From Oscillospiraceae bacterium (lineage in GTDB: Bacteria; Bacillota; Clostridia; Oscillospirales; Acutalibacteraceae), in assembly GCA_015066015.1 (NCBI GenBank), contig SVPE01000006.1, positions 62,001 to 126,000 on the forward strand: DNA of 64,000 nt. Direction: 5' to 3'. The notes beneath the pieces are model-generated. The model worked only from the letters and a program-made list of their open reading frames with translations. It did not search any database and had not been told where the DNA came from. How positions within the stretch are numbered: position 1 is the first letter of the stretch; each line of letters begins with the position of its first letter. This document shows, in pieces, positions 7,944-57,634 of the stretch. The position numbers were made by a program, and so were the translations under genes.

Positions 7944-8348
7944 TTATCTGTTTCTGCCGCAGTGGCGTCCTCTGCCTGAAGTGCCTCTGTTGTCGCAGAC
8001 ACCGTCATTATCTGCATCAACAAAGCCTGCGCCGTTGCCGTTTGCGTAAGAGCCTCTGTTGTCGCAGATGCCGTCATTATCAGTGTCAACAAAGCCAGCC
8101 CCGTTGCCGTTTGCGTTAGAGCCTCTGTTGTCGCAGATACCGTCATTATCAGCGTCAACAAAGCCTGCCCCGTTGCATTTCGCTAAGGAGCCTCTGTTAT
8201 CGCAGATGTCGTCTCTGTCGGCATCGACAAATCCTGCACAGTTTGCCCTGCATTCTGCAACCTGTCTTCTGCCGTAAGCGGATGCTGTAACTGCAACAAC
8301 CGAGACAAGTACAAGTGCGGTAATGATGATTGCGAGAAATTTTTTCAT
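7944..8348 (-). CDS. Secreted repeat protein with EF-hand/TSP3-like DxDxDG repeats
   Basis: Signal peptide MKKFLAIIITALVLVSVVAVTASA; four ~23-aa repeats GAGFVDADNDGICDNRGSxANGN; RBS ggaggtgaaacc. Confidence 0.75.
   Translation of the reverse strand: MKKFLAIIITALVLVSVVAVTASAYGRRQVAECRANCAGFVDADRDDICDNRGSLAKCNGAGFVDADNDGICDNRGSNANGNGAGFVDTDNDGICDNRGSYANGNGAGFVDADNDGVCDNRGTSGRGRHCGRNR
7983..8240 (-). repeat. 69-bp in-frame tandem repeat
   Basis: gcctctgtt landmarks at 7983, 8052, 8121 and 8190 (period 69 bp = 23 codons). Confidence 0.85.
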
Positions 8349-34250: not shown

Positions 34251-34299
34251 CACCTTAACAAAAGAGCAGACCTTTCAGCCTGCTCTTTTGTTAAGGTGT
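34251..34299. terminator. Long stem-loop (19 bp)
   Basis: CACCTTAACAAAAGAGCAG...CTGCTCTTTTGTTAAGGTG. Confidence 0.6.
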
Positions 34300-34316
34300 A
34301 AACTTAACCGTTACAT

Positions 34317-34696
34317 CAGCGCGTTCCTGTGCGCTTTAATTTTCAGGCTTAATAGAAGTGTACAGGATGGTGTTTTCTTCGAACGAAGGTGTATGAAAAT
34401 ACTCCGAGAGAGAAAAAACACCAAGAGCCCGAAGAAAAAGAGCAAACCTGAAGGTCTGCTCTTTCTTTTATTCAAGCCGTTAATTAACTTGCTTATCAGC
34501 GCGTTCCTGTGCGCTTTAATTTTCAGGCTTAATAGAAGCGTACAGGATGGTGTTTTCTTCGAACGAAGGTGTATAAAAATACTCCGAGAGAGAAAAAACA
34601 CCAAGAGCCCGAAGAAAAAGAGCAAACCCGAAGGTCTGCTCTTTCTTTTATTCAAGCCGTTAATTAACTTGCTTATCAGCGCGTTCCTGTGCGCTT
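34317..34696 (-). repeat. 180-bp tandem repeat, 2 copies plus 20-bp partial; diverged relative of the core element at 44.5/57.5 kb
   Basis: cagcgcgttcctgtgcgct at 34317, 34497 and 34677 (period 180 bp); reverse strand has CTCTCGGAGTA...TACACCTTCG as in the core. Confidence 0.85.
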
Positions 34697-44088: not shown

Positions 44089-44207
44089 TCCTCCTTAATG
44101 CTGATTTCAACAATAAAATAACACATAAATTATTGTTTGTCAATAAAAAAACAATAAAAAACATAAAAAATATATCGTAATCCGTAATTGTATGCGGATG
44201 TGGGACA

Positions 44208-44319
44208 GGGGAGGAACAACGCGCGAAAGCGCGTTTACCCTAAGAAAAATCGGTTTCGGGAAAGGGAAAACGATTTTTCTTAGGGTATTTGACCCTCAAA
44301 AGGGTCAAAGTTCCTCCCC
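44208..44319. other. Structured four-way-junction element, copy 1
   Basis: Closing stem GGGGAGGAAC/GTTCCTCCCC (44208-44217/44310-44319); arms 44220-44233 (CGCGC-GAAA-GCGCG), 44238-44285 (15-bp stem), 44288-44309 (9-bp stem). Confidence 0.8.
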
Positions 44320-44401
44320 GGTAAATCCGACTTGCGGGTATCGCCTGTTTTGTCGCTTCGCTTCAAATGAGCCGGGCAGCGTAGCTGCCCGGCATAAACA
44401 A

Positions 44402-44696
44402 AAACCGCGGAATAAATCCGCGGTTTCAGACTGTCGATAAAGTCACAAGAACAACAATGCACAGAAACACTTAAAGAACGTCGATAAAAAATTAAAAACA
44501 AAAACTACAAAGAAAAATGGTCAGGACATCGAATCCCGACCATTTTTGCATTGTTTTGCCATTTTTTCGCCCTCTCGGAGTACCACTGTACGCCTTCGGG
44601 GCGAATAAAAAGGCATCTTGCACCTTTCTCAACAGTCCGACAGCTTGTCGAAAATACTTTTCGACAAGCTGAAACCGCGGAATAAATCCGCGGTTT
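44402..44696 (+). mobile_element. MITE-like structured element, copy A, with 25-bp palindromic flanking duplications
   Basis: aaaccgcggaataaatccgcggttt at 44402-44426 and 44672-44696; interior 44427-44671 begins CAGACTGTCGA and ends TCGACAAGCTG (imperfect TIR). Confidence 0.7.
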
Positions 44697-57336: not shown

Positions 57337-57634
57337 AGGCGCGGATTTTATATCCGCGCCTCAGACTGTCGATAAAGCCGCAAGAACATATATGCGGAAT
57401 AATATATATACATATAAATTAAAGCAAAGATAATAACAATATTGCCAACAAAATCCGGAGGAACATCGAATTCCCCCGGATTTTCGCATATATTTGCCAT
57501 TTTTTCGCCCTCTCGGAGTACCACTGTACGCCTTCGGGGCGAAGAAAAAGGCATCTTGCACCTTTCTCAACAGTCCGACAGCTTGTCGAAAATACTTTTC
57601 GACAAGCTGAGGCGCGGATTTTATATCCGCGCCT
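57337..57634 (+). mobile_element. MITE-like structured element, copy B, with 25-bp palindromic flanking duplications
   Basis: aggcgcggattttatatccgcgcct at 57337-57361 and 57610-57634; interior 57362-57609 shares a 116-nt block (57494-57609) with 44556-44671, one mismatch. Confidence 0.75.

Follow-up and report, generated by a model that had tools for sequence, protein, structure and literature searches.

Hairpin-flanked miniature elements in an Oscillospiraceae genome and their probable mobilisation by IS1182-type transposases

The window analysed here, a stretch of 64,000 nucleotides from an Oscillospiraceae bacterium (contig SVPE01000006.1, positions 62,001 to 126,000), carries two copies, A and B, of a short element without significant coding capacity, each set between two identical 25-bp palindromes (Table 1). 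The palindrome reads AAACCGCGGAATAAATCCGCGGTTT on both sides of copy A and AGGCGCGGATTTTATATCCGCGCCT on both sides of copy B, and the interior of copy A begins with CAGACTGTCGA and carries the inverted CAGCTTGTCGA at its end. A first-pass annotation made from the window alone had described this arrangement, with inverted ends in copy A and with flanking palindromes that differ between the copies and agree on the two sides of each; all of this is borne out, and its coordinates for copy A were exact. Beyond that description, we found a 31-bp palindrome at the right end, an inner inverted copy of the left end and a conserved internal fold. The window has six occurrences of the motif CAGNNTGTCGA, compared with an expectation of 0.53, and none of 100 shuffles reached six. 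As set out below, copies A and B are very probably miniature inverted-repeat transposable elements (MITEs), that is, a real non-coding mobile element of 245 bases in copy A, moved in trans by a DDE transposase of the IS1182 family of insertion sequences (IS).

The genome that holds the window (G000) is a draft of 2.38 Mb in 42 contigs and is 91% complete. A BLAST search with the interior of copy A found about 30 full or partial copies in it, the best of them with 97-100% identity, and the interior was matched in 23 of 34 genomes of the same genus. Single-unit copies measure 243-259 nt and lack a transposase gene, and thus have the short, multi-copy, non-autonomous character of a MITE. Flanks were then taken from copies of ten genomes, giving a set of 52 copies from 10 species that are complete and have both flanks, and a hairpin was counted at a junction when its score was at least 7. 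Hairpins abut both junctions in 41 of the 52 copies, compared with 0.065% of 20,000 random positions, and a direct repeat spans the element in 42 of them, compared with 0.145%. These target duplications are 9-30 bp long with a median of 25. Each locus has its own palindrome and a T-rich tract follows the hairpin in 30 of the 41 copies, hence the targets are mostly intrinsic terminators, relative to which the element lies in both orientations about equally (23 versus 18). Insertion at terminator-like hairpins with duplication of the whole palindrome, which had been proposed from copies A and B only, is therefore supported at the level of the family, and the further copies with matched flanking palindromes that this proposal called for were found by the dozen.

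Table 1. Positions of the two elements, their parts and other repeats in the window
Feature	Position	Strand	Remark
Further inverted-repeat element adjoining copy A	44205..44320		
Left target palindrome, copy A	44402..44426	.	25-bp target duplication; identical to 44672-44696
MITE copy A	44427..44671	+	245 nt
Left terminal inverted repeat, copy A	44427..44442	+	CAGACTGTCGATAAAG; agrees with IS1182-type ends CAGNCTGTCGAAAAAG
P3 hairpin of the conserved fold, copy A	44513..44547	.	+ strand loop ATCGAA; compensatory changes
P4 long hairpin, copy A	44558..44614	.	conserved apex motif CTCGGAGTACCNNNGTACGCCTTCGG at 44574-44599
Inner inverted copy of left end, copy A	44624..44639	-	pairs with left end, closing stem P1
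Terminal 31-bp palindrome P5, copy A	44641..44671	.	outer arm is the right terminal inverted repeat
Right target palindrome, copy A	44672..44696	.	
Left target palindrome, copy B	57337..57361	.	identical to 57610-57634
MITE copy B	57362..57609	+	248 nt
Right target palindrome, copy B	57610..57634	.	
Tandem repeat, 69 nt	7980-8243		
Tandem repeat, 180 nt	34284-34643		

A palindrome on both sides of nearly every copy might also mean that the palindromes belong to the element, or were made alike by gene conversion, and are not target duplications. We consider this extremely improbable. The palindrome differs from locus to locus, and mismatched left and right flank pairs match in 1 of 2704 cases, which identifies it as duplicated target. 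Moreover, in the closest species with the neighbouring gene (G002; 87% protein identity), where the flanks of copy A are syntenic with 80% and 60% DNA identity, the orthologous locus holds a single terminator-like hairpin and no element. The empty site sought by the first-pass annotation was thus recovered in part, as one hairpin without an insert; the sequence of that hairpin differs, so the locus gives support and is not a strict empty site. In three of the 42 pairs (L008, L024 and L164), the hairpin loop on one side is the reverse complement of the loop on the other; these few cases would fit a hairpin that is closed and then reopened in the reaction. At another locus (L167), the two target hairpins are distinguished by a compensatory base-pair change in the stem, GC to AT, suggesting that the duplicated hairpin is under selection or was repaired as a hairpin. 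The element adjoining copy A has ends GGGGAGGAAC and GTTCCTCCCC, and a similar sequence stands beside one other copy (L023).

Evidence for the mobilising enzyme comes from larger transposons with the same ends. Fragments of a PF13751 transposase (Pfam) lie at ends CAGACTGTCGAAAAACCGTG next to hairpins in genomes G004 and G024 and at ends CAGACTGYYGACAAACC in G007 and G033, and these matching ends led to the partner transposons. Full-length relatives came to light when proteins from 301 genomes of the family were searched, and full-length IS1182-family transposons with CAGNCTGTCGAAAAA-type ends stand between identical palindromes in 11 copies from five related genomes. Their ends read CAGCCTGTCGAAAAAG, CAGTCTGTCGAAAAAG or CAGACTGCTGACAAAG, and the same palindrome flanks the whole transposon in L396, L431, L405, L398, L417 and six of seven near-identical copies in G136; examples of such palindromes are AGCCGACTGAGCAATACGCTCACTCGGCT (L396) and AAAGGGACAGCAAACGCTGTCCCTTT (L429). 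Four of these transposases reach 396-417 bits against NCBIfam NF033551, for which the cut-off is 270, and they also match PF13751 and PF05598. The MITE and the autonomous IS1182 element therefore share their terminal inverted repeats, as the two end sequences in Table 1 show, and both duplicate whole palindromes at their targets.

The IS30 family was considered as another source of mobilisation, because IS1630 of Mycoplasma fermentans duplicates inverted repeats of variable sequence, to judge from a title cited in PMC3317919 and PMC7648426. This origin is very unlikely. The copy-bearing genomes G000 and G023 have no IS30-like HTH_38 domain above the cut-off and no rve domain; the ends in question are missing at the rve loci checked and present on IS1182 transposons, and no IS30 transposase sharing them was found. 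As mobilisers, IS30 (PF13936), IS4/IS5 (PF01609), rve (PF00665), PF00078 and Y1/HUH (PF01797) proteins were rejected, since their presence in the carrier genomes is inconsistent. Searches of plasmid and phage collections with the element gave no matches.

According to the mechanism that we propose, an IS1182-type transposase acting in trans would recognise the ends of about 16 bp (CAGNCTGTCGANAAAG; also given as CAGNCTGTCGA), and would pick its target by shape, as an inverted repeat, in most cases an intrinsic terminator, from which a hairpin or cruciform can extrude. The ends of the element would be joined to both feet of the hairpin on opposite strands, leaving two single-stranded gaps that are each one whole hairpin long, and repair of these gaps would produce a complete hairpin on each side. 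With an intact hairpin on either side, the terminator is preserved and the host gene would be unharmed, which may explain the accumulation of so many copies. Duplication of the terminator may thus be a way of inserting beside a gene without breaking its termination.

Several observations weigh against this mechanism. The genome of the window has no intact PF13751, PF01609, PF00665 or IS30-type transposase, as far as its draft of the stated completeness extends. Of a transposon, it retains decayed ends only: one 93-bp IS end that is 96% identical to the end in G004, and a solo end at C32:13846. The autonomous partner with CAGNNTGTCGA ends that the first-pass annotation had asked for was hence found in related genomes of the family, and not as an intact copy in the same genome. 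In the same genus, IS ends CAGACTGTCGAAAAACCGTG are present and hairpins abut them in L143 and L140. Multi-copy IS may be lost from such a draft, and several IS ends in other genomes sit at contig edges, as is expected of repeats lost from drafts; the absence of an intact transposase is therefore weak evidence. An autonomous partner also need not persist, so its absence lowers the confidence in an IS1182 affiliation of the MITE and does not remove it. Atypical copies are a second difficulty. L180, L179/L374 and L208 end in the apex of P4 and still keep a palindromic duplication, which extends 4-9 bp upstream beyond the hairpin, and a simple two-ended reaction does not predict truncated copies of this kind. 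The hairpins on the two sides are different or strongly diverged in 6 of 42 copies, and short non-palindromic duplications occur in L201 (11 bp) and L079 (9 bp). One differing pair, L199/L200 in G024, has the look of recombination between copies: L200 carries on its right a hairpin almost identical to the one on the left of L199, which suggests either such recombination or mis-assembly. From some other copies, P5 and the greater part of the right hairpin are missing, probably through a deletion across two neighbouring hairpins, and tandem dimers are arranged as unit-unit-P5 with a period of about 213, the inner inverted copy of the left end forming the unit boundary. Truncated copies, P5-less copies and dimers could all be products of one-ended transposition combined with microhomology repair, or of later deletions.

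Inside the element, RNAalifold run on ten diverse copies gave one common fold, consisting of P1 (left end and its inner inverted copy), P3, P4 and then the terminal palindrome P5, and 24 of its 65 pairs are changed on both sides with pairing kept. An extra long-range stem, P2, appears when copies are folded singly. P1 and P5 are partly palindromic because they are terminal repeats; P3 and P4 are under no such need. The apex motif of P4, CTCGSNGTACCNNNGTACNSCTTCGG, was matched in at least 113 contig stretches, mainly metagenome-assembled genomes of Clostridia and Oscillospiraceae, and the matches listed also include Bifidobacterium leontopitheci and one IMG/VR contig. Many of these matches have a similar layout with other ends such as GGGGCTGTAAAAAAAG, and an IS1182-type element in G022 (L135) has these ends too. 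In Rfam, no family reached its gathering score over the element, and the weak hits lay far below and were judged to be chance; among 80 loci, the genes beside the P4 motif were host genes only, with no recurrent partner.

That elements whose ends are unrelated have a covarying fold in common points to a functional module which Rfam does not contain. Most likely, and this is a guess, the fold helps the MITE itself, either by giving it a structured end that is recognised when single-stranded or by acting as a small RNA. As a more specific and tentative proposal, about which we are rather doubtful, the end-closed stem, the P2/P3 branch and P4 with its conserved apex may form an undescribed module of structured RNA or single-stranded DNA that recurs under different terminal repeats in many Clostridia and in Bifidobacterium, and on which mobility or tolerance by the host depends, one possible role being that of a structured substrate when the element transposes at hairpins.

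Conservation of the fold, together with the fact that truncated copies with kept, longer duplications all miss the same end, might instead be read as the trace of a retroposon like the short interspersed nuclear elements, with reverse transcription of its minus-strand RNA taking place at a nick next to the hairpin. Under this reading, the left junction would be fixed and the right one variable, and copies truncated at the 5′ end would have target duplications, the missing end being the 5′ end of the RNA. We regard this origin as very unlikely. Reverse transcriptase (PF00078) is absent from the copy-rich genomes G000, G016, G023 and G024, which are incomplete drafts, and the ends of the element match the terminal repeats of IS1182 transposons that make the same duplications. 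An asymmetry of wobble pairs between the strands, 49 versus 3, was rejected as proof of an RNA strand, since it was an artefact of scoring; unbiased scoring gave 25 versus 11, and 12 versus 11 with duplicates removed. Mobilisation by an IS1182-type transposase thus remains our preferred explanation for the family.

Related repeats were seen beside these elements. The GGGGCTGTAAAAAAAG-ended group (L252-L365; for example L268, L321 and L324) has the P4 apex motif and a layout akin to that of the MITE, with a terminator-like terminal palindrome made of the element's own ends; in this group, hairpin duplication was not seen. Another multi-copy repeat of about 200 bp, which has GGGYTGTTGCATTAAG ends and contains a related hairpin of P4 type, occurs at G000:C41:43722, C23:18690, C33:121336 and other positions (L063-L065). 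In L181, L178, L206 and L375, other small inverted-repeat elements, which end in AAGCAGAATAACAC and CAAGCTGACAA, have inserted precisely at the P4 apex of the MITE, so the P4 hairpin serves as a target in its turn.

Compared with known systems, the family shares with the pneumococcal BOX, RUP and SPRITE repeats and other bacterial MITEs a short, non-coding, multi-copy, intergenic and structured character (PMC10969869), and differs from them in targeting hairpins specifically, in duplicating the hairpin and in having a core fold common to elements with different ends. The PATEs (palindrome-associated transposable elements) of haloarchaea are likewise small mobile repeats without a transposase and are associated with palindromes, but have neither terminal inverted repeats nor target duplications (PMC3119063). 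For IS1630, a passage of PMC3317919 gives duplications of 16-26 bp; its transposase belongs to another family, and that passage describes no MITE with a conserved fold. The closest parallels are IS1272 and its composite TnSha1, which have an IS1182 transposase, ends of about 16 bp and hairpin targets, often terminators, without sequence specificity; in IS1272L, the left end is also tandemly duplicated. However, these elements insert into hairpins with deletion of the hairpin and no duplication (PMC5678879, PMC4923244), whereas in the present family the hairpin is kept and duplicated whole. Stem-loop targeting by IS1272 is documented in PMC5678879, where duplication of the whole stem-loop was predicted as one outcome (pathway b), and our copies fit that pathway. 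What is new relative to the literature is hence the retention and duplication of the hairpin, which had been proposed for IS1272 relatives while documented cases delete it (PMC5678879). The many locus-specific cases show that a hairpin target can be duplicated in its entirety by IS1182-type elements, and they supply many natural hairpins before and after insertion for probing how a transposase reads DNA shape.
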